This document shows positions 25,922 to 37,704 of a stretch of 55,902 bases of DNA, one piece after another. The notes beneath the pieces were generated by a model. It saw nothing but the letters and a program-made list of their open reading frames with translations, was not told the origin of the DNA and searched no databases. Within the stretch, counting starts at the first letter, position 1. Every line of letters starts with the position of its first letter. The stretch comes from Anaerolineales bacterium. GTDB lineage: Bacteria; Chloroflexota; Anaerolineae; Anaerolineales; RBG-16-64-43. Location of the stretch: contig JAFGKK010000087.1 of NCBI GenBank assembly GCA_016928575.1, positions 1 to 55,902 of the forward strand, given 5' to 3'. Position numbers and translations under genes: made by a program.

Positions 25922-27514
25922 TTATGCCAGAATCGTCATCAGGATTCCGGCGTCCAATCCCGCGTAGACCAAGGATTGAGTCAGGGGGTAGACGTAGCTG
26001 GTGACCTTTTCTCCGGTTTCCAGGGTCAATGTGCGCAGTTCGAAGTAGGGCCGGGGGGCCCGGCGGTACCACCCGGTTGCGCTGCCTTGCAGGCCGATCA
26101 GCTTTTCGGCTTTCCGCCAACCTAAGAGGAATTCGACTATCCGCAACGGCTGGCGGTAATCCAGGACAAGAAACCCGGAGTCATCCTGCAGCACAAAGTC
26201 CTCCGAATAGAAGAGGCCCGGCACCCCGCGGCCGATGATTTTTCCCGCGATCGTGCAGGGGATGGAACGGACAGCGGACACTTTCACTTCGCCGATCAGG
26301 GATTTCACGTTGCGCGCTTCGTCGAAAGCGTGGCGGTAGGAGAACCTTCGCTGCAGCCACCATCCACCGAAGGTGCAGAGCAGGGCGATCCCCAGCAATT
26401 TCCAACTCGCGCCGAGCGCGATTCCCAGCGCCAGGGAGGCGGCGGTCCCGCCGAGCAATCCGAGGAGCGGGAGGCATTGCACCAAGCCGTCCACCAGGAA
26501 CTCGTCCCAATAGCTTTCCGGACGCTCGGCTTGGAAGCGAAACCGCGAGGTTGGCCGATACTCCCGGGTTTGTTGTTCCAACGCCCGAATTCGCTTGGCC
26601 GGCAGGGGATGCGAGGAATTCAACTCGAAAAGGCCGGCCCAAGGATTCCAGAGATCCCATTTCATCGCGTCTTCTATCGCGGCGGCGGAAACCGCGCCGG
26701 TTCCGGCGCCGATCAACGCGAGGGTTTGGGCCACTTTGGGGTCGAAGATGCCGAAAGCCCTTCCCGCAACCATGCGGGAGTCGTCTTTTTTGCCTGCTTC
26801 CTTCGGCGCACGGGCCAGCCCGTAGGCGATTTTCACCAGCGCCGAGGACAGCGCATCGGGGTTGCGGGTTTGTTCCCCCGAGAATTGGTCGGCGTAATAT
26901 TCCCGGATCCGCGAGAGCATAAGAACGATGTATTGGCTGATGATGTACGCCGCATACGACAGCAAGCCGATCAGAGCTGCGTACCCTCCGCTGCGGTACT
27001 TTTGCCGTCCGCTTCCGCGAATGGTGATGTAGAGGACGTACAGCACCAGCGGGATGGCGGCGGCCATGGTCATCACTACGAAATCCCAGTGGGCGATGTG
27101 ACCCAGCTCGTGCGCGACGACGGCCTGGCGTTCCTCCGGATCGAGGCGGTCCATCAGCCCCGAGATCACCACCAGGCGCGCGTCGCCCGGGTAGTGGCCG
27201 AAGGTGAAGGCGTTCGGGTTGCCGTCGCGGATCACGCCGAAGCGCGGCGCGGGAATCCCATGCTCGGCGCAGACCTTCTCCATGAACGCCGCGAGCTGCG
27301 GATCAAGGCTGTTGGCCTCCCGCCATTCGATTTTGTAAATCAGTTCCAAGACGAACGGCCCGAGGACGTATTGGAGCAGGAGGGCTCCCAGGGCGAAGGC
27401 CACCGCGACGACGGACGGGAGGTCGAAGTAAATCACCACCCCCATCCCGACCGCGAACAGCAGGCCGAACAAAAGGGCCAAAACCAGCGCAGACCGAAAG
27501 AAAAGGTTGATCAT
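25922..27514 (-). CDS. M48 family membrane metalloprotease (HtpX-like), C-terminally extended
   Basis: 530 residues. Two N-terminal membrane segments (about 7-30 and 35-58) precede a zincin domain with VVAHELGHIAHWDF (HExxH zinc ligands) and the downstream EYYADQFS motif providing the third ligand, with two more hydrophobic segments between. The substrate-pocket region SSHPLPAKRIRALE is also present. HtpX itself has about 290 residues; here about 200 more follow, with two further membrane segments and a beta-rich tail. Such proteases degrade damaged membrane proteins. GGGAGGAAGG lies just before the ATG. A near-consensus promoter sits 150 bases upstream. Confidence 0.88.
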   Translation of the reverse strand: MINLFFRSALVLALLFGLLFAVGMGVVIYFDLPSVVAVAFALGALLLQYVLGPFVLELIYKIEWREANSLDPQLAAFMEKVCAEHGIPAPRFGVIRDGNPNAFTFGHYPGDARLVVISGLMDRLDPEERQAVVAHELGHIAHWDFVVMTMAAAIPLVLYVLYITIRGSGRQKYRSGGYAALIGLLSYAAYIISQYIVLMLSRIREYYADQFSGEQTRNPDALSSALVKIAYGLARAPKEAGKKDDSRMVAGRAFGIFDPKVAQTLALIGAGTGAVSAAAIEDAMKWDLWNPWAGLFELNSSHPLPAKRIRALEQQTREYRPTSRFRFQAERPESYWDEFLVDGLVQCLPLLGLLGGTAASLALGIALGASWKLLGIALLCTFGGWWLQRRFSYRHAFDEARNVKSLIGEVKVSAVRSIPCTIAGKIIGRGVPGLFYSEDFVLQDDSGFLVLDYRQPLRIVEFLLGWRKAEKLIGLQGSATGWYRRAPRPYFELRTLTLETGEKVTSYVYPLTQSLVYAGLDAGILMTILA

Positions 27515-27863: not shown

Positions 27864-27892
27864 TTGACGGAATCGGCCGAGCATGTTAATAT
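27864..27892 (+). promoter_or_regulatory. promoter of the aromatic amino acid operon
   Basis: TTGACG at 27864-27869, spacer of exactly 17 bases, TAATAT at 27887-27892. The expected transcription start (about 27899-27903) falls at or just before the ATG of the leader peptide, so the leader is probably translated as a leaderless or nearly leaderless message; no Shine-Dalgarno is present. Confidence 0.82.
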
Positions 27893-27902
27893 GCCGCCCA
27901 CG

Positions 27903-27977
27903 ATGCAACCGAACCGGGCTTTCTTCTTTTACGCGTATTTTTACGGCTACCGCCAAGCAGCCGTCGCTTCGCGTTAA
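27903..27977 (+). CDS. Phe/Tyr-rich attenuator leader peptide
   Basis: 24 codons ending in TAA. Codons 7 to 16 read FFFYAYFYGY, that is four Phe and four Tyr in ten codons, directly upstream of a gene set for Phe and Tyr synthesis. The peptide itself is a sensor of charged tRNA: a ribosome waiting at these codons stops before about 27965. It starts without a Shine-Dalgarno right behind the operon promoter. It is too short for routine gene finding. The composition, promoter in front and terminator behind make it convincing, although translation has not been shown. Confidence 0.88.
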   Translation: MQPNRAFFFYAYFYGYRQAAVASR

Positions 27978-28020
27978 GAAGGTCCGGAACCAGCAACCTT
28001 CCCAAAACATACCGCGAGGC
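27966..28020 (+). promoter_or_regulatory. antiterminator pairing of the Phe/Tyr attenuator
   Basis: GCTTCGCG at 27966-27973 can pair with CGCGAGGC at 28013-28020 over 8 bp with one G-U, using the same bases as the left arm of the terminator. A ribosome stalled on the Phe/Tyr codons leaves 27966-27973 free, whereas one that reaches the TAA at 27975 covers it. A smaller hairpin GAAGGT/ACCTTC lies between the two arms and would bring them together. The switch logic is inferred from these pairings. Confidence 0.75.
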
Positions 28021-28043
28021 CAGACGGCCTCGCGGTTTTTTTT
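28012..28043 (+). terminator. intrinsic terminator of the Phe/Tyr attenuator
   Basis: Arms 28012-28021 and 28026-28035 form a perfect 10-bp GC-rich stem with an AGAC loop, followed at once by eight T (28036-28043). It stands between the leader peptide and the first structural gene, so it must be bypassed for the operon to be expressed. Confidence 0.93.
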
Positions 28044-28098
28044 ATCCCCCCCGCGGATCCGGCTGGCGGCCGGACCGGCGGGGCATTCGGAGGCCAGC

Positions 28099-29328
28099 AT
28101 GCCCGTTCGGGGAATTCGAGGGGCGACCACCTCGCCCGGCAACCATTCCGAGGATCTGCTCGGGCGTACGAAGGAATTGCTGACGGAAATCCAAAAGCGC
28201 AACGGCTTCCAGCCGGAGGAGTTGGCGTCGATCGTCTTCACCACCACGCCGGATTTAAACGCTGCCTTCCCGGCGACGGCCGCCCGCGAGATCGGCTGGA
28301 ACGATACGGCCATGCTCTGCACCCACGAGATCGACGTGGCCGGCAGCATCCCGCGCTGCATCCGCGTGCTGATCCTCTGGAACACCGCGCGGTCACCGGA
28401 GGAGATCCGCCACGTGTACCTTCACGAGGCGGAATCGTTGAGGCCGGATTTGGCGGCGGCGCCGGCGGAAAAACCGGCCCCGGCTCCTTTCCGCGCGCCG
28501 GTCTCGATCGCCTTCCAGGGGGAGCACGGCGCCTTCTCGGAAGAGGCCATCCTGCTTGGATTGGGCGCGGAGACCTCGCGGATCCCCTGCCGCACGTTCC
28601 AGGAAATCTGCCTGGCGGTGACCAGCAGCCGCGCGGAGGCCGGCTTGCTGCCGGTCGAGAATTCGACCACCGGGTCGATCCACACCTCCTACGATCTGTT
28701 GCTTGAAAACGACCTGCACATCATCGGCGAATACATCCTTCCGGTCCGGGAGTGCGCGATGCTGGCCCCCGGCGTGGAAGTCGAAACGGTCCGCCAGGTG
28801 ATCAGCCATCCCCAGGCGCTGGAACAGTGCGCGCGCTGGATCGCCTCCCAGCATTGGGAAGCGGTGCCGGTCTACGACACCGCCGGCGCGGCCCGGATCC
28901 TCGCCCAGGAAAAGCGACCGGACCGGGCGGCGATCGCCAGCGAAACCGCGGCACGCCTGTACGGCTTGAACGTCATCGCCCGTTCGATCCAGGACATCCA
29001 GGTGAACTACACGCGGTTTCTCCTGTTGGCCAAGGAGAACCGCCCGGTGGCGAAGCCGGCCAAGACTTCGCTGATTTTCGCCACCCGGCACAAACCCGGC
29101 GCGCTTCACGCCTGCCTGAACGTGCTTGCCCGGCGCGGAATCAACCTCTGCAAGATCGAATCCCGCCCGGACCGCAAGAAGCCCTGGCACTACCTGTTCT
29201 ATCTGGATTTTGAAGGCGATGCATCCGATCCGAAGGTGATCGACGTGTTGGCGGAACTGAGCACGCATACGGAGTTTGTGCGCCAATTGGGCTCCTACCC
29301 GACCCGGACCCTGGGGGAAACCAAATGA
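28099..29328 (+). CDS. pheA: AroH-type chorismate mutase fused to prephenate dehydratase with ACT domain
   Basis: 409 residues. Residues 1-120 match the trimeric AroH (B. subtilis type) chorismate mutase: start [10 protein letters not shown] with the conserved Arg, [17 protein letters not shown], the Glu in HEIDV, the Arg in CIRV and [15 protein letters not shown]. After a Pro/Ala linker, residues about 142-325 form prephenate dehydratase ([24 protein letters not shown], and YTRF). The C-terminus is an ACT domain with the GAL and ESRP motifs that bind Phe for feedback inhibition. It converts chorismate to phenylpyruvate. Usual P-proteins carry AroQ-type mutase, so the AroH fusion is notable. 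GGAGG precedes the ATG; an in-frame upstream extension runs through the attenuator and is rejected. Confidence 0.92.
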
Positions 29329-29377: not shown

Positions 29378-30388
29378 ATGGTGATTGTCATGCAAAACCA
29401 TGCCAAGAGCGAGGATATCGAGGAGACCGTGCGTCACATCCGGCAAATGGGATACGGCGCGAACGTCTCCCGCGGCGAGGAGCGCACGGTGATCGGCGTG
29501 CTCGGGGACGAGCGGCCGATCGACTGGGAGCAGATGGAGATCCTGCCGGGGGTGGAGCGGGTGGTCCGGATCCTCAAGCCGTACAAGCTGGCGTCGCGCG
29601 ACGCGCGTCCGGAAAACACGGTCGTGCGCGTGGGATCGGCCGTCATCGGCGGCGAAGCGGTGGTGTTCATCGCCGGGCCGTGCGCCGTGGAAAGCCGCGA
29701 GCAGATCCTGGAAACCGCGCAGGCCGTCAAGGCGGCCGGGGCGCACATGCTCCGCGGCGGGGCGTACAAGCCGCGGTCCTCGCCGTATTCCTTCCAAGGC
29801 ATGGCCGAGGAAGGATTAAAGCTGCTGGCCGAAGCCCGCGACGCCACCGGCCTGCCGGTGGTGACGGAGGTGATGGCTCCCGATCAGGTCGGGACGGTCG
29901 TGAAGTACGCCGACATGCTTCAGATCGGCGCGCGCAACATGCAAAACTTCCCCCTCCTGCTGGAAGTGGGGAAAAGCGGGCACCCGGTCCTGCTCAAGCG
30001 CGGGATCAGCGCCACGGTCGAAGAGTGGCTGATGGCCGCCGAATACCTCCTTTCCAGCGGGAATACGCGGGTCGTCCTGTGCGAGCGCGGAATCCGCACC
30101 TTCGAGACCGCCACCCGCAACACCACCGACATCAACGCCATTCCGGTCGTCAAGCGGCTCTCGCATCTGCCGGTGATCGTGGATCCGAGCCACTCCACCG
30201 GAAAGGGCGAATACATCGAGCCGGTCTCCCGTGCGGCGATCGCCGCCGGGGCGGACGGCTTGATCATCGAAGTCCATCCGCATCCGGAAGAAGCGCTTTC
30301 CGACGGCGCGCAAAGCCTGCGGCCGGAATCGTTCGCCGAGATGGTTATGCGGGTAAAGCGAATCGCCGCCGCCGTAGGGCGGAGTTAG
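29378..30388 (+). CDS. aroF: 3-deoxy-7-phosphoheptulonate (DAHP) synthase, type I-beta
   Basis: 336 residues. DAHP synthase condenses phosphoenolpyruvate and erythrose 4-phosphate, the first step of the shikimate pathway. The first 70 residues form the ferredoxin-like regulatory domain seen in T. maritima-type enzymes ([15 protein letters not shown]...), where Phe or Tyr bind. Catalytic-barrel motifs follow: [57 protein letters not shown] and [17 protein letters not shown] precedes the ATG. It lies 49 bases after pheA in the attenuated operon, so both allosteric and transcriptional control by Phe/Tyr are likely. Confidence 0.93.
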
Positions 30389-30630: not shown

Positions 30631-31533
30631 ATGCCCCCCGAAAACGCAGAGTCGCATAGGATCCAAGATTTTGTCGTCGGCATCGTCGGACTGGGACTGA
30701 TGGGCGGTTCGCTGGCGCTCGGATTATCTGGAAAATGCCGCCGGCGGATCGGATTGGATTCGGATCCCGTCGCGGACCAGGCGGCGCTGGAGCGGGGGGC
30801 GGTCGACGAGCTGGCGCTCCACCTGCCGGACTTGGTTGCCAAATCCGATTTGATTGTTCTGGCGGCGCCGGTCCGCACGATCCTGGCGCTTCTGCGGGAG
30901 CTTTCGGAGATCCGTCCGCCGCGCGGGGAACGCCGGATCGTCATCGACATCGGCTCCACCAAAAGCGAAATCGTCAAGGCGATGGAGGCGCTCGGCGAGG
31001 GCTACTCCCCGGTCGGCGGACATCCGATTTGCGGGCGCGAAGTCCAGGGGATCCGCCATGCGGATCCCGGGCTGTACCGCGGCGCACCATTCGTACTCAC
31101 CCCCATTGACGGATCGGAGCCGTACGCGGCGGATGCCGGCCGGCAGTTGGCCGCGGTCCTCGGCGCCCTCCCGCTGGAGCTCGGCGCCGCCGAACACGAT
31201 ACGCTGGTGGCGAGCACCAGCCATCTGCCGCACTTGGTGGCGGTGGCGCTGGCACAAACCGCCCGGCGCCTGCCTTCCGCTTCCGCGCTCGTCGGGCCGG
31301 GCTTTCGCGATACGTCGCGGCTGGCGGCTTCCAACCTCGAGATGATGACCGATATCCTTCTGACCAACCGCGAGCATGTCCTGCAGGCCCTCGAAGAATA
31401 CATCCACCGGCTGGAGGCGCTGGGGTTGCGCGTCCGCGAAGGGGATGAGGCCCGATTGAAGGTCCTGCTGGCCGAGGGACGGCGCGCCCGGCAGGAACTG
31501 CTCGAGCCTTCCGACCCCCAGGGGACGGCATGA
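30631..31533 (+). CDS. tyrA: prephenate dehydrogenase
   Basis: 300 residues. It oxidises prephenate to 4-hydroxyphenylpyruvate on the way to tyrosine. The N-terminal Rossmann motif is VGIVGLGLMGGSLAL (GxGxxG), followed by DIGSTKSEIV, GHPICGREVQG and a helical C-terminal domain with STSHLPHLVA and GFRDTSRLA. There is no ACT domain. The gap of 242 bases after aroF holds no recognised gene or terminator. The stop overlaps the aroA start (ATGA). No strong Shine-Dalgarno precedes the ATG, so the start is less certain than for its neighbours. Confidence 0.9.
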   Translation: MPPENAESHRIQDFVVGIVGLGLMGGSLALGLSGKCRRRIGLDSDPVADQAALERGAVDELALHLPDLVAKSDLIVLAAPVRTILALLRELSEIRPPRGERRIVIDIGSTKSEIVKAMEALGEGYSPVGGHPICGREVQGIRHADPGLYRGAPFVLTPIDGSEPYAADAGRQLAAVLGALPLELGAAEHDTLVASTSHLPHLVAVALAQTARRLPSASALVGPGFRDTSRLAASNLEMMTDILLTNREHVLQALEEYIHRLEALGLRVREGDEARLKVLLAEGRRARQELLEPSDPQGTA

Positions 31534-32867
31534 GACTTCGCTCGCGGCGGTCGCCGGCGTTGCGCGGAGAAGTTCGTCTTCCGGGCGATAAATCCATCTC
31601 CCACCGCGCCGCCTTGTTGGCCGCCGCGGCGGAAGGGAAGAGCCGGATCGAAGGGATGCTGAACGCCGGCGTCACCCGCGTAATGCTGGATTCGCTCGCC
31701 TGCCTGGGCGCCGGTTTTTCCTGGGAGGACGGTGCCTTGTGCGTTACGGGAACGGGAGGTTGCGGATTCCAGCCATCGGGCGGGGGAGGAACAAAGGCTC
31801 AGCCTTTGTATTGCGGGAATTCCGCGACGACCATGCGGCTGTTGACCGGGATGCTGGCTGGAATTCCGGCGTGGGAATCCACAACCGGTGGACGGGAATT
31901 CCTCTTCGACGGATCCGAGCAATTACGAAAAAGGCCGATGAAGCGCCTTTTTGCACCCCTATGCGAAATGGGCGCCCGAATCTCGCCGACAAATGAGCCT
32001 GGACGCGCCCCATTCCGGCTTATAAGCAGTCGCCTGAATGGGATTGAACACCGGATGCCGGTTGCTTCTGCCCAAGTTAAGACCGCCCTTCTGCTGGCAG
32101 GTTTGGCGGCGGAAGGGTCCACCTTGGTCGAAGAACCTTCTCCTTCCCGCGACCACACCGAGCGGCTGTTGCGTTGGTTGGGAATCCGATTGACCGCCGA
32201 ACCCGGATGGGCGCGGGTGTTTCCGCTTGAAAAGCCCCTGCCTTCGTTCGATCTCCGCATCCCGGGTGATTTTTCCTCCGCCGCTTTCCTGATCGTCGCG
32301 GCGGCGATTGTGCCCGGATCGGACGTTCTTTTCAAGGACGTCGGGCTTAACCCGCGCCGTACGGGATTGTTGGCCGTCCTGCGGCGGATGGGAGCCCGGA
32401 TCGAAGAACGGACACATGCCGAATTGTCCGGTGAACCGGTCGGCGATTTGCGGGTCCGAGCCGGGGAGCTGGCGGGTACCGTGATCGAGGGCAGCGAGGT
32501 GGTGGACATGATCGACGAGTTTCCGGCGCTGGCCGTCGCCGCGGCGTGCGTCGGTGGAACGACGGAAGTCCGGAATGCCGCGGAGCTGCGGTTAAAAGAA
32601 TCAGACCGGATTTCCGCCCTGGCCGGCGAATTGAGGGCGGTCGGAATTCCCGTGGAGGAAAGCCCCGACGGCTTCGCCATCCGCGGCCCGGCCTCGATCC
32701 GCGGCGGCTTGGCGGACGCCCGCGGCGACCACCGGCTGGCGATGGCGCTGGCGGTGGCGGGCATGGTTTCCGCAGACGGGGTCGAGATCGACGGCGCGGA
32801 GAGCATCGGCGAATCCTTTCCGGATTTCCCGGCGCTGGCCGGCGCCCTTGGAGCGAGGCTGGCATGA
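31530..32867 (+). CDS. aroA: 3-phosphoshikimate 1-carboxyvinyltransferase (EPSP synthase), class II-like
   Basis: 445 residues. It joins shikimate 3-phosphate and phosphoenolpyruvate. Motifs: LPGDKSISHRA, GNSATTMRL, RPMKRL, SAQVKTALLLAGL, DHTERLL, PGDFSSAAF, DMIDEFPA, KESDRI and DHRLAMAL. In GNSATTMRL an Ala stands where glyphosate-sensitive enzymes have the Gly equivalent to E. coli G96, and RPMxR plus SAQVK are class II features, so low glyphosate sensitivity is predicted. The start overlaps tyrA and the stop overlaps aroE (both ATGA), showing tight translational coupling. A short stretch near 31740-32060 is less GC-rich but in frame. Confidence 0.93.
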   Translation: MRLRSRRSPALRGEVRLPGDKSISHRAALLAAAAEGKSRIEGMLNAGVTRVMLDSLACLGAGFSWEDGALCVTGTGGCGFQPSGGGGTKAQPLYCGNSATTMRLLTGMLAGIPAWESTTGGREFLFDGSEQLRKRPMKRLFAPLCEMGARISPTNEPGRAPFRLISSRLNGIEHRMPVASAQVKTALLLAGLAAEGSTLVEEPSPSRDHTERLLRWLGIRLTAEPGWARVFPLEKPLPSFDLRIPGDFSSAAFLIVAAAIVPGSDVLFKDVGLNPRRTGLLAVLRRMGARIEERTHAELSGEPVGDLRVRAGELAGTVIEGSEVVDMIDEFPALAVAAACVGGTTEVRNAAELRLKESDRISALAGELRAVGIPVEESPDGFAIRGPASIRGGLADARGDHRLAMALAVAGMVSADGVEIDGAESIGESFPDFPALAGALGARLA

Positions 32868-33709
32868 AGGCTGTGCTGATCGGGTGGCCGATCCGCCACT
32901 CCGTTTCGCCGGCGATGCACGACGCCGCTCTGCGGGCCCTCGGTTTATCGGGCGGATACTCCCTGCTTCCGGTCGAACGGGAGGCGGAGCTTGAGCAGGT
33001 GCTGGCCAAGTTGAAATCGGATCCGGATTGGAGCGGCGCGAACGTCACCGTGCCCTATAAGGAGAAGATCCTGCCGCATCTTGATCGGCTGGAAGGCGCT
33101 GCGGCGGAGTTGCGGGCGGCCAACACCGTCGTCCGCCGCGGAGCGGAATTGATCGGGCACAATACCGATCTGCCCGGCTTTCTCGCCGACCTGGAGCGGA
33201 ACGGGATGGATTCCCGGGGCAAGCCCGCGCTGGTGATCGGATCGGGCGGTGCGGCCCGGGCGGTCGTGCTTGGGCTGGTGCAGAGCGGTTGCCCGGTCAC
33301 AATCGTGGCGGTGATCCGGGATCAGGCGCGGACGCTCGCCGCCGAACTCGGCGGGGGAAGGGTGGACGTCCTGGGATGGGAGGATCCGGAATTGATCGAA
33401 AGGGCTCGCGGGGCGGGATTGATCGTCAACGCCTCGCCGGCGGGGATGTGGCCCGCGGTGCAAGCGACGCCCTGGCCTTCCGCTCTCCCGCTTCCGGAAT
33501 CGGCCTGCGTCTACGATCTTGTCTATAATCCGATCGAGACCCGATTTCTGCGGGAGGCGAAGCTGAGGGGCAATCGGACGGCCTCCGGACTGGGGATGCT
33601 TGTCGAGCAGGGAGCGTTGTCGTTCGAACTGTGGACCGGAGTCCGCGCGCCCCGCGAGGCGATGATGTCGGCCGCGCGGGCGGCGATGGAAGCGGAGGAA
33701 AGGCAATGA
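32864..33709 (+). CDS. aroE: shikimate dehydrogenase (NADP+)
   Basis: 281 residues, typical length. It reduces 3-dehydroshikimate to shikimate. Motifs: GWPIRHSVSPAMHDAAL (substrate binding), NVTVPYKEKIL with the catalytic Lys, NTDLPGFL, VIGSGGAARAVVLGL (nucleotide binding), VNASPAGMWP, VYDLVYNPIETRFL and GLGMLVEQG. The start sits in the aroA stop (ATGA) and the stop sits in the aroC start (ATGA). Confidence 0.93.
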   Translation: MKAVLIGWPIRHSVSPAMHDAALRALGLSGGYSLLPVEREAELEQVLAKLKSDPDWSGANVTVPYKEKILPHLDRLEGAAAELRAANTVVRRGAELIGHNTDLPGFLADLERNGMDSRGKPALVIGSGGAARAVVLGLVQSGCPVTIVAVIRDQARTLAAELGGGRVDVLGWEDPELIERARGAGLIVNASPAGMWPAVQATPWPSALPLPESACVYDLVYNPIETRFLREAKLRGNRTASGLGMLVEQGALSFELWTGVRAPREAMMSAARAAMEAEERQ

Positions 33710-34890
33710 TCCGTCTGATGACCGCCGGAGAATCGCACGGCCCCGCCCTGACCGCCATCCTCGAAGGGATCCCGGCAGGTTTGCCCCTCCAGCCGGAGGA
33801 CCTTCAGCCGGATTTGATCCGCAGGCGGAACGGCTGGCTGGGCGGTCCGCCCTACCGGGGCGCCAGCCCGCGAATGACGATCGAGCGCGACTCGGCGCAG
33901 ATTTTGGCCGGCGTGATGGGCGGAAAAACCACCGGCGCGCCGATCGCGATCCTGATCGAAAACGCCGATCACGCAAAGTGGAAGGGGCGCCCCGTCGATG
34001 CGATGACCGTTCCGCGTCCGGGCCACGCCGATCTCACCGCGGCCTTGAAGTACGGTTATGACGATCTGCGCCCGGGATTGGAGCGGGCCAGCGCGCGGGA
34101 GACCGCCGCCCGCATGGCGGCTTGTTCGGTATGCCGGAGGATGCTTGCAAGCCTGGGGATATCCGTCGGCAGCTGCGTAGTCCAAATCGGGGCGGTGACT
34201 GCCGGCCTCGCGGCGGACCCGCCCGAAGAGCGGCTGAAGCGGGCCGAGGAGAACCCGTTGCGCTGCCCCGATCCGGCGGTATTGGAAAAAATGCAGGCCG
34301 AGATCGACCGGGCGATGGCGGACGGAGAAACGGTCGGCGGCGTCTTCGAGATCGCGGCGCTCGGCGTGCCTCCGGGATTGGGCAGTTGCGCGGCCTGGGA
34401 GCAGCGTCTGAGTGCGCGTTTGGGCGCCGCGCTGTTCGGCATTCCGGCGGTGAAGGGCGTCGAGATCGGCGGCGGATTCGCGCTGGCGGGGATGGCCGGA
34501 ACGCAGGCCCAAGACGCAATCCGGATCGCGGGCGGCGCGCTGGTCCGCATTTCCAATCACGCCGGAGGCGTCGAAGGCGGGATCACCAACGGCCAACCGG
34601 TCGTCGTCCGCGCGGCGATGAAGCCGATTGCGACCACGCTTTCCCCGCAGCCGTCGGTGGATCTGGCCGCCGGCCGGAACGCCGAGACGCGCTACGAACG
34701 CTCCGACTTCTGCACCGTGCCGCGCGCGGCGGTCGTCGGCGAAGGAATGGTCTGCCTGGTCCTGGCCGGCGCGGTCTTGGAAAAGTGCGGAGGCGATTCG
34801 ATGGCGGAGCTGCAAGCCCGCTTCGGCGGCCTGGCGCGGGGCGCGGCGGGAGACATCCGCCTCGATCCGAAGCCGAAGATCTTCTGGTGA
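33706..34890 (+). CDS. aroC: chorismate synthase
   Basis: 394 residues. This flavin-dependent enzyme forms chorismate from EPSP. Signature motifs are GESHGPALTAILEGIPAGL, RDSAQILAGVMGGKTTGAP, RPGHADLTAALKYGYDDLR, ERASARETAAR, GALVRISNHAGGVEGGITNG and the C-terminal region with DFCTVPRAAVVGE. Length fits the longer Firmicute/actinobacterial type. It starts within the aroE stop. After its stop the cluster is broken by a 176-bp repeat element before aroKB. Confidence 0.94.
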   Translation: MIRLMTAGESHGPALTAILEGIPAGLPLQPEDLQPDLIRRRNGWLGGPPYRGASPRMTIERDSAQILAGVMGGKTTGAPIAILIENADHAKWKGRPVDAMTVPRPGHADLTAALKYGYDDLRPGLERASARETAARMAACSVCRRMLASLGISVGSCVVQIGAVTAGLAADPPEERLKRAEENPLRCPDPAVLEKMQAEIDRAMADGETVGGVFEIAALGVPPGLGSCAAWEQRLSARLGAALFGIPAVKGVEIGGGFALAGMAGTQAQDAIRIAGGALVRISNHAGGVEGGITNGQPVVVRAAMKPIATTLSPQPSVDLAAGRNAETRYERSDFCTVPRAAVVGEGMVCLVLAGAVLEKCGGDSMAELQARFGGLARGAAGDIRLDPKPKIFW

Positions 34891-35619
34891 TTTTCCATCG
34901 GGTTGATTCTAGCAGGGTGTTGAAAAAGCCTAGCGATGTCATTGCGAGGAGCGAAGCGACCCCGGCCCACCCCGCGCCGGGGCGGGCGAAGCAATCTCCT
35001 CCTATTTCCAGCGAAGGAGATCGCTTCGCTCCCTGCGGTCCTTCGGAATGACACCCTTTACGGGCTTTATCAACAACCTGCTAGTGTTGTGCCCTAAAAA
35101 TCCCTCTCAAAATTTTAGGGTTCAAAGGGCTGTCTGGAAAATGGGTAAACGGTTTTTCCGTTGAAACATCGCCTTCTGGCGGTGTCGTCATTCTCGCGCC
35201 GGCCCTCTGCGTGTTCTTCGCCGGGGGTGTCTTTCGCGGGGATCCAGGGATTGGGAGTTGTGGATGTCTGCGAAATACAATCCGCTTCCCTCGCTTTGCG
35301 AGGGCGGGCGCGGGGAAGCTATGCCGGGGCGAAGGACAAAACCTATAGCACCGGTGATGTTATGCTGAGATTATTCTGTCGAAATAAGATGTATGAGTAT
35401 TTTCGAATCCGTGAGATAAATTACTAGTTGCCCATCCAGGGCGAACACGGAGATACGCGGATTTTTCCGAACCGCTCCGCGTCCCTCGTGGAACACGGCC
35501 TTCCCCGGTTCTTTTTTTTTGCGATACAATCGGCCGCACAATGCGAGCGGTTTTGCCCGGGTCCGCTGTGGAGGGCGGACGGACCGCGGGAAGGGAAGAA
35601 TCTGCCGTCGAGGTTGGAG
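34891..35619. other. 729-base gap inside the aro cluster
   Basis: It contains the inverted-repeat element at 34909-35084 and a hairpin with arms CCCTAAAA (35092-35099) and TTTTAGGG (35113-35120). A possible -10 TACAAT lies at 35525-35530 without a good -35. An 88-codon frame at 35161-35427 has no coding character. Nothing else is recognised. Confidence 0.55.
34909..35084. repeat. MITE-like inverted-repeat element, 176 bp
   Basis: Both ends read CTAGCAGG(G/T)TGTTGA inwards, a 15-bp terminal inverted repeat with one mismatch. Subterminal sequences are also related: TGTCATTGCGAGGAGCGAAG at about 34937 and the inverted TCGCTTCGCTCC...GGAATGACA at 35021-35053. Nested hairpins (34988-35000 with 35015-35027) fill the centre. 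The 'GTCATTGCGAGGAGCGAAGCGA' type sequence is one I know as a dispersed repeat in diverse bacterial genomes. There is no coding capacity; it would be a non-autonomous element or a folded RNA repeat. No clear target duplication is seen beyond the CTAG ends. Confidence 0.82.
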
Positions 35620-37185
35620 ATGAACTTCTACATTTACGGACCCCCGGGATGCGGAAAAACCACCGTCGGGATGCTGCTTGCCGAACGGATGGGCTGGCAT
35701 TTCCTCGACACCGATAAAATCATCGAACACGAAGCCGGGATGCCGATCACCGAGATCTTCCTGCAGAAAGGCGAAGCCGAATTCCGCAGCCGCGAAAAGG
35801 AGCTGTTGAAGAAGCTATCCAAATCCACCCGCACCGTCGTGGCGCTGGGCGGGGGAACCCTGGTGGATCCGGAAAACCGCGACCAGGTGGAGCAAGACGG
35901 CCCGGTGGTGTGTTTGATGTGCGAACCGGAAGTCATCCTCAAGCGCATGGGCGACGAATTAAACGCACGTCCGTTGCTCGCTGGACCGGGCCCTCTCGAA
36001 CGGTTGAAATCGCTCCTCGCCAAGCGGGCGGCTTTGTACGCATCGTTCCCGATGACGCTCGATACAACCACCCTGGCCCTGGAGGATGTGGTCCGCAAGA
36101 TCCAACTGGTGGCGGGCATTTTCCATGTCAACGCGATGGGGGCGGGTTACGACGTCCTGATCGGACGGGGGATACTCCCGCGGCTGGGGATGGAGTTGGA
36201 GGAGCGCAAACTGTCGCCGCCGTTTGTGGCGGTGAGCGATTCGAACGTTGCGCCGCTGTATCTGGATACGGTGTGCCGGGCGCTGGCGCCCGAGTCGGTC
36301 GAATTGATCGTCCTGCCGGCGGGTGAATCCACCAAGTCCCTCCCCACGCTGGAATCCGTTTACGCGGACCTGCATCGCTTGCGGATGGAGCGCCGGGGGA
36401 CGGTGCTGGCCCTCGGCGGCGGCGTGGTCACCGACTTGGCCGGTTTCGCGGCCGCGACGTTCCTGCGCGGCGTTTCGTGGGTGGCGCTGTCCACCAGCCT
36501 GCTGGGGATGGTTGACGCAGCGATCGGCGGAAAAACCGCCGTGGACATGCCGCAGGGGAAGAACCTGATCGGCGCCTTCTACCCCCCGGCGATGGTAATC
36601 GAGGATCTGGACGTGCTCGCCACGCTTCCGCCGCAGGAACTGCGGGTGGGAATGGCCGAGGCGATCAAAACCGCCGTGGTCGGCGATTCCAAACTGTTGG
36701 GCAAGATCGAATCGCTCTCGGGCCGGATCACCCCCGACGGGCTGGATTGGATCGTCCGCAGGGCGGCGCGGGTGAAAATCCGCGTGGTGGAGGAGGATCC
36801 GTTCGAGCGCCGCGGCCCGCGCGAGGCGCTTAACTTCGGCCACACGCTGGGCCACGGGATCGAAGCCAACTCGGATTACCGGATCCCGCACGGCGAAGCG
36901 GTCGCGCTGGGCATGGTTGCGGAATCCCACTTGGCGGAAAAGATCGGTTTGGCCGAGACCGACTTGGGCGAGAGGCTGACGGTTCTGTTGACAACCTTCG
37001 GCCTGCCGGTAAAGCACGATGCGCCGGTGGATAAAATCCTTGAGTATGTCCGGGCCGATAAAAAACGGCGCGGCGGAAGGGTGAAATGGGCCCTGCCCAT
37101 TGCGGCCGGAAAGGTCCGTGTGGGCCTCGATGTCGCCGAAGAGGATGTGAGGACGGCGCTGATATCCATCGGATGCCGGGGCTGA
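35620..37185 (+). CDS. aroKB: shikimate kinase fused to 3-dehydroquinate synthase
   Basis: 521 residues. Residues 1-165 are shikimate kinase: P-loop GPPGCGKTTVG, DTDKIIE, the EFRSREKELL region, VALGGGTL and an RPLLAG lid. Residues about 170-521 are 3-dehydroquinate synthase: LPAGESTKSLPTLE, LGGGVVTDLAGF, STSLLGMVDAAIGGKTAV, GKNLIGAFYPP, the MAEAIK motif and zinc-ligand His residues in NFGHTLGHGIE and PHGEAV. It therefore supplies steps two and five of the pathway. AroKB fusions are known, for example in Thermotoga. GAGGTTGGAG precedes the ATG closely. The repeat element upstream may mean a second promoter is needed. Confidence 0.93.
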   Translation: MNFYIYGPPGCGKTTVGMLLAERMGWHFLDTDKIIEHEAGMPITEIFLQKGEAEFRSREKELLKKLSKSTRTVVALGGGTLVDPENRDQVEQDGPVVCLMCEPEVILKRMGDELNARPLLAGPGPLERLKSLLAKRAALYASFPMTLDTTTLALEDVVRKIQLVAGIFHVNAMGAGYDVLIGRGILPRLGMELEERKLSPPFVAVSDSNVAPLYLDTVCRALAPESVELIVLPAGESTKSLPTLESVYADLHRLRMERRGTVLALGGGVVTDLAGFAAATFLRGVSWVALSTSLLGMVDAAIGGKTAVDMPQGKNLIGAFYPPAMVIEDLDVLATLPPQELRVGMAEAIKTAVVGDSKLLGKIESLSGRITPDGLDWIVRRAARVKIRVVEEDPFERRGPREALNFGHTLGHGIEANSDYRIPHGEAVALGMVAESHLAEKIGLAETDLGERLTVLLTTFGLPVKHDAPVDKILEYVRADKKRRGGRVKWALPIAAGKVRVGLDVAEEDVRTALISIGCRG

Positions 37186-37254: not shown

Positions 37255-37704
37255 ATGGCGAAAATCCTGCTGATCCACGGACCGAATCTGAACCTGCTGG
37301 GGGAGCGGGAGCCGGAAATCTATGGCCGGGTGACTCTGGCCGAAATCAACCGCAGCCTGGAGGCCCTGGCGAAGGAACGCGGCGCCGAACTGCGGATTCT
37401 GCAATCCAACAGCGAAGGGGATATCGTCGACGCCATCCAGGAGGCGCGCGCGTGGGCCGACGGCCTGATGATCAATCCGGGCGCCTTGACCCACTATTCC
37501 CTGGCGATCCGCGACGCCCTGAGCGCCGTTCGGCTTCCGGTTGTCGAGATCCACATCTCGAACGTGTTCGCCCGCGAGGAAATCCGCCATCGCTCGGTTA
37601 TCGCCCCGGTCTGCATCGGATCCCTTTGCGGATTTGGCTGGCGCGGCTACGAACTCGGTCTGCTCGGTCTCCTCGGATACCTCGATTCCCTCAAAGGCAA
37701 ATAA
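37255..37704 (+). CDS. aroQ: type II 3-dehydroquinate dehydratase
   Basis: 149 residues, typical for the small dodecameric type II enzyme. Motifs: [19 protein letters not shown] with the catalytic Tyr, [38 protein letters not shown] and SVIAPVC. It dehydrates 3-dehydroquinate to 3-dehydroshikimate. GAGAGGGAG precedes the ATG. With it the window encodes every shikimate step from DAHP synthase to chorismate. Confidence 0.95.

Follow-up and report, generated by a model that had tools for sequence, protein, structure and literature searches.

Does the 584-nt intergenic region in front of the aromatic amino acid genes described here hold a ribosome-read transcription attenuator, as the original prediction had proposed? 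The window, i.e., the whole 55,902-nt stretch of DNA that was analyzed, corresponds to contig C87 from a genome of 3.84 Mb. Its closest relatives with a name are MAGs of Anaerolineales/Anaerolineae (protein identities of 85% and 78%), in keeping with the Chloroflexota-like genome that had been supposed. An M48 peptidase gene (25922-27514) lies on the minus strand, divergent from the aro genes, and the region between it and the gene at 28099 holds a promoter, a leader ORF and a terminator, all on the plus strand. The first structural gene (28099-29328, plus strand, as are those that follow) encodes a fusion of a type I (AroH-type, CM_1) chorismate mutase, prephenate dehydratase and ACT. Downstream are genes for DAHP synthase (aroF; 29378-30388), prephenate dehydrogenase (TyrA; 30631-31533), EPSP synthase (AroA; 31530-32867), shikimate dehydrogenase (AroE; 32855-33709), chorismate synthase (AroC; 33706-34890), a shikimate kinase-dehydroquinate synthase fusion (AroKB; 35617-37185) and a type II dehydroquinase (AroQ; 37255-37704). 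The genes fused at 28099-29328 are separate in many other members of the order. Judged by its anatomy, its conservation and the matched co-variation of its pairings, the region is very probably a classical ribosome-mediated transcription attenuator of this operon.

The leader ORF (27903-27977) extends for 24 codons from an ATG at 27903 to a TAA and would encode the peptide MQPNRAFFFYAYFYGYRQAAVASR. Its sensor codons (27921-27950) read Phe-Phe-Phe-Tyr-Ala-Tyr-Phe-Tyr-Gly-Tyr, and both the earlier coordinates and the count of four Phe and four Tyr codons within ten were correct. When the 584-nt intergenic region was shuffled 3000 times with dinucleotides preserved, no ORF with eight Phe/Tyr codons in ten arose, nor did one with six in ten and a terminator downstream; within the window, no other short ORF with six Phe/Tyr codons in ten was found. 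The RNA fold of 27900-28046 gave a z-score of -5.4.

Directly 5′ of aroH, a Phe/Tyr-rich ORF and then a terminator were present in 23 genomes from 12 families, out of the 26 genomes of the order that have an AroH-type chorismate mutase. In the remaining three, aroH abuts an ORF on its 5′ side, with no space for a leader. Scans of loci on both strands yielded 54 Phe/Tyr leaders across the class, mostly before aroH-pheA fusions or aroH. The leader is not universal in the class; 17 of 28 whole-genome class loci were positive, and seven of the loci without a leader come from a single genus-level group. Relatives keep the Phe/Tyr codon run while the leader RNA sequence changes. Such a comparison of relatives had been proposed at the outset, and the Phe/Tyr codons, both pairings and the promoter-to-ATG spacing were all found to be retained.

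Three mutually exclusive pairings (1:2, 2:3, and 3:4) are present in the leader RNA. Arms 3 and 4 form an intrinsic terminator (28011-28043) in which 28011-28021 pairs with 28026-28036 around the loop AGAC, followed by a U-tract; the eight T residues that had been noted are there (28036-28043), and the stem is 11 bp long, not 10. Arm 2 (27959-27988) includes the antiterminator arm (27960-27973), and arm 3 (28011-28028) comprises the 5′ arm of the terminator, its loop and the beginning of its 3′ arm. The 8-bp antiterminator helix described earlier (27966-27973 with 28013-28020) exists but is not the full length, since 6 bp more (27960-27965 with 28023-28028) bring it to 14 bp. The computed stability of the antiterminator is approximately -25.5 kcal/mol vs. 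-23.6 kcal/mol for the terminator. Arm 1 (27914-27949) overlaps the sensor codons and is predicted to act as a protector by block pairing with arm 2, all of which would pair with it when no ribosome is on the leader. The original prediction, besides missing about half of the antiterminator, overlooked this 1:2 protector helix, which is present in the MFE fold and reaches approximately -33.5 kcal/mol as a duplex, exceeding 2:3. As a separate observation, the leaders of four loci from one family outside the order (L132, L135, L136, and L137) end in a common GGGTCGAATCGTCACGCC-like motif that pairs with arm 1 and also with the terminator arm and loop.

Matched changes in the arms were assessed by swapping arms between genomes, and the resulting figures are not strict probabilities because related genomes are not independent: for 2:3 pairing at 54 loci, swaps matched the native combination in 0 of 5000 permutations, and for 1:2 pairing the native value lay above every swap (0/5000) in both subsets. 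Within the order clade by itself, a short form of 2:3, restricted to the 5′ arm and loop of the terminator, was only weakly better in its native combination than in swaps (101/5000), and the extended 14-bp form was therefore tried; with the extended arm, 0 of 10000 swaps reached the native value, and one genome per family gave ~0.013. Ribosome-masked folding of the 54 loci showed the terminator arm paired upstream with a mean probability of 0.73 for a ribosome stalled mid-run vs. 0.27 for one at the stop codon, a part of this contrast being due to extra free RNA, because shuffled leaders gave 0.59 in the stalled case vs. the native 0.73. In 47 of the 54 loci, pairing was higher with the stalled ribosome than with the one at the stop codon by a margin above 0.2. 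Folding thus bore out the geometry that had been proposed, in which stalling frees arm 2 and a ribosome at the stop codon masks it.

The near-consensus promoter was also borne out. It is of the σ70 type (27864-27892), with TTGACG and TAATAT separated by 17 nt and a TG preceding the -10, and its layout is repeated in relatives of differing sequence. The leader ATG lies 10 nt downstream of the -10 hexamer, a spacing that points to a transcription start zone at 27899-27903 and a 5′ UTR of ~0-4 nt; a search before this ATG found no Shine-Dalgarno (SD) sequence, as had been noted. At a promoter criterion of at least 7 of 12 matches, 20 of the 23 order loci, whose sequences differ between genomes, had their ATG 6-10 nt past the -10, and no SD was found at starts so spaced in those loci scored for SD. 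The same spacing was shared outside the order by L132, L136, and L137. In the shuffle control, 1.5% of ATGs reached a promoter score of 8 at such spacing and 0.3% a score of 9 or more. Predicted leaderless genes were estimated at 4.0-5.7% in four Chloroflexi genomes (PMC3160421). We infer that ribosomes probably load on the leader ORF as on a leaderless or near-leaderless mRNA. An attenuating leader ORF might instead be started in another way, on a longer 5′ UTR made from another promoter, or at a start farther upstream, for example the in-frame ATG 27891. In several distant class orthologues the leader ORF is indeed longer and is accompanied by an SD-like sequence (AGGAG in L041, L113, and L118; GAGG in L043, L112, and L130), and among the order loci that depart from the 6-10-nt spacing (L024, L140, and L150), L150 is SD-led, with a 22-nt gap containing GAGGAG. 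Against this stand the spacing itself, both in the order and in the three loci outside it, and, for the upstream start, the position of ATG 27891 on the -10 box and its absence from L004. We therefore regard a non-leaderless start in the window as unlikely.

Two further explanations would deny the leader ORF its role, and both appear highly improbable. If a T-box or other riboswitch governed the terminator, the short ORF would be incidental, and T-box-type leaders do occur in this genome, before pheS (63.5 bits against the T-box model of Rfam, below gathering) and before trpE (by sequence signature). The window, however, contains no T-box or other riboswitch match at gathering or at E ≤ 10, and conservation of the Phe/Tyr codon run although the leader RNA changes argues against an incidental ORF. 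The terminator could also be constitutive, ending a stand-alone small RNA or insulating the operon, as the very stable stem (-23.6 kcal/mol) might suggest; yet the alternative pairings co-vary, and there is no upstream gene in need of termination because the M48 peptidase gene points away.

The reading as a ribosome-mediated attenuator fits the arrangement found here: an ORF rich in codons for the pathway's products lies between promoter and operon, a terminator lies between that ORF and the first gene, and the mutually exclusive pairings are retained through matched changes. The transcription start, translation of the leader, stalling and the amino acid response are parts that we infer from these features. 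RNA polymerase would initiate a few nucleotides 5′ of the leader ATG, giving a leaderless or near-leaderless leader mRNA. With Phe- and Tyr-tRNA charged, the ribosome would reach the stop codon and cover arm 2 (27960-27973), and the terminator at 28011-28043 would form. With Phe-tRNA (possibly also Tyr-tRNA) in short supply, it would stall within 27921-27950 and remove arm 1, leaving arm 2 free to form the 14-bp helix with arm 3 and its loop ahead of terminator closure, so that the shikimate genes would be transcribed. Where no ribosome is loaded, arm 1 would hold arm 2, and termination would be the default.

A His-rich leader in the window's own genome was recognized by eye, and other operons were sampled through family searches. 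For the own-genome hisG leader (L156, on C115, reverse strand) the sequence is MITRLYHNHAHTTDQPRSLS, and the leader ATG lies 9 nt past a TATATT. A scan of the order found a His-rich leader ORF and a terminator before hisG in 22 of 25 loci (L160-L182), and 19 of the hisG leader loci had a promoter score ≥ 8 at 6-11 nt from a start codon. No ilvB leader was found in the scan, ilvB being preceded by other coding sequence. We slightly favor a wider reading in which leaderless ribosome-mediated attenuation occurs order-wide in Anaerolineales-like Chloroflexota, in at least the aromatic and histidine pathways, and orthologues have changed from one mode of initiation to the other, leaderless or SD-led; given such changes, the way in which translation starts may itself tune the attenuator.

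Other leaders were also seen. Those of pheS (L159) and trpE (L155) in the own genome carry the T-box-type sequence AGGGTGGCACCGCGGGAA or nearly so, and the genome appears to mix T-boxes and attenuators by pathway because pheS matches the Rfam T-box, below gathering as given above. On a Holophagae (Acidobacteriota) contig, a Phe/Tyr-rich ORF (GFYFYF) and a terminator precede a DAHP synthase-like ORF (L084:1669-1805), possibly an independent case in another phylum. On a contig labeled Clostridiales, an ORF ending in HLFFYFFYYFRR and then a GC-rich inverted repeat lie 5′ of a pheA-like gene (L100:2536-2640).

Taken as a whole, these results would bring amino acid-sensing attenuation into a Chloroflexota class that is large and for the most part uncultured, and would provide a regulatory handle on its aromatic amino acid synthesis. 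The series of orthologues with leaderless and SD-led starts could serve as a natural test of the route of initiation against translation-transcription coupling. The leader also constitutes a well-supported RNA family not recognized by Rfam, as no Rfam family matched at the attenuator site. Identity with the Rfam Phe_leader was rejected, there being no covariance-model match, as was identity with the T-box, whose models had no match in the window.

That pheA is attenuated by way of the translating ribosome is textbook knowledge. As in pheL-pheA and pheST of E. coli (Rfam Phe_leader), a leader peptide with Phe codons is combined here with alternative helices and a terminator and, as in pheL-pheA, it precedes a chorismate mutase-prephenate dehydratase gene. 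The mutase of the E. coli enzyme is of the AroQ type; here, in contrast, it is type I (AroH-type, CM_1), the predicted sensor is Phe/Tyr, and the leader has neither an SD nor an Rfam match. No report of attenuators in Chloroflexota was found in the open-access library that was searched; the work of Lopatovskaya et al. 2010, reportedly a comparative study of attenuators, possibly mentions them. We consider the Phe/Tyr attenuator, class-distributed and leaderless-looking, to be a genuine instance, at the level of sequence, of a known mechanism in what is, as far as found, a new phylum.

Corynebacterium glutamicum offers the nearest likeness. As described in PMC11802643, its aroR, a Phe-Tyr-Phe leader, lies before aroF, and stalling enhances transcription (Neshat et al. 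2014); aroR-aroF is reported there to respond to Phe, not Tyr, a caution not to take the sensing of both for granted here. Both systems place a mixed Phe/Tyr leader peptide 5′ of an aro operon, but the actinobacterial one is, on that account, a three-codon sensor before aroF, whereas eight Phe/Tyr codons here precede a chorismate mutase-prephenate dehydratase and most of the shikimate pathway. A ribosome-binding site is lacking from the leader peptides described for C. glutamicum ilvBNC (Morbach 2000, cited in PMC4046766), for mycobacterial poly-Cys ORFs (Canestrari 2020, cited in PMC13236596) and for trpL of Sinorhizobium meliloti (PMC7298713). The novelty originally claimed for a mixed Phe/Tyr sensor with a leaderless peptide was overstated, because Corynebacterium is known to have both leader peptides that lack a ribosome-binding site and an aro leader of the mixed Phe/Tyr type. 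The ilvBNC, poly-Cys and trpL leaders resemble the present locus in that a biosynthetic operon is controlled by a leader peptide that has no ribosome-binding site or sits at the 5′ end of the RNA; they differ in amino acid and phylum, whereas the arrangement here is kept across an order and some of its distant orthologues appear to be SD-led.
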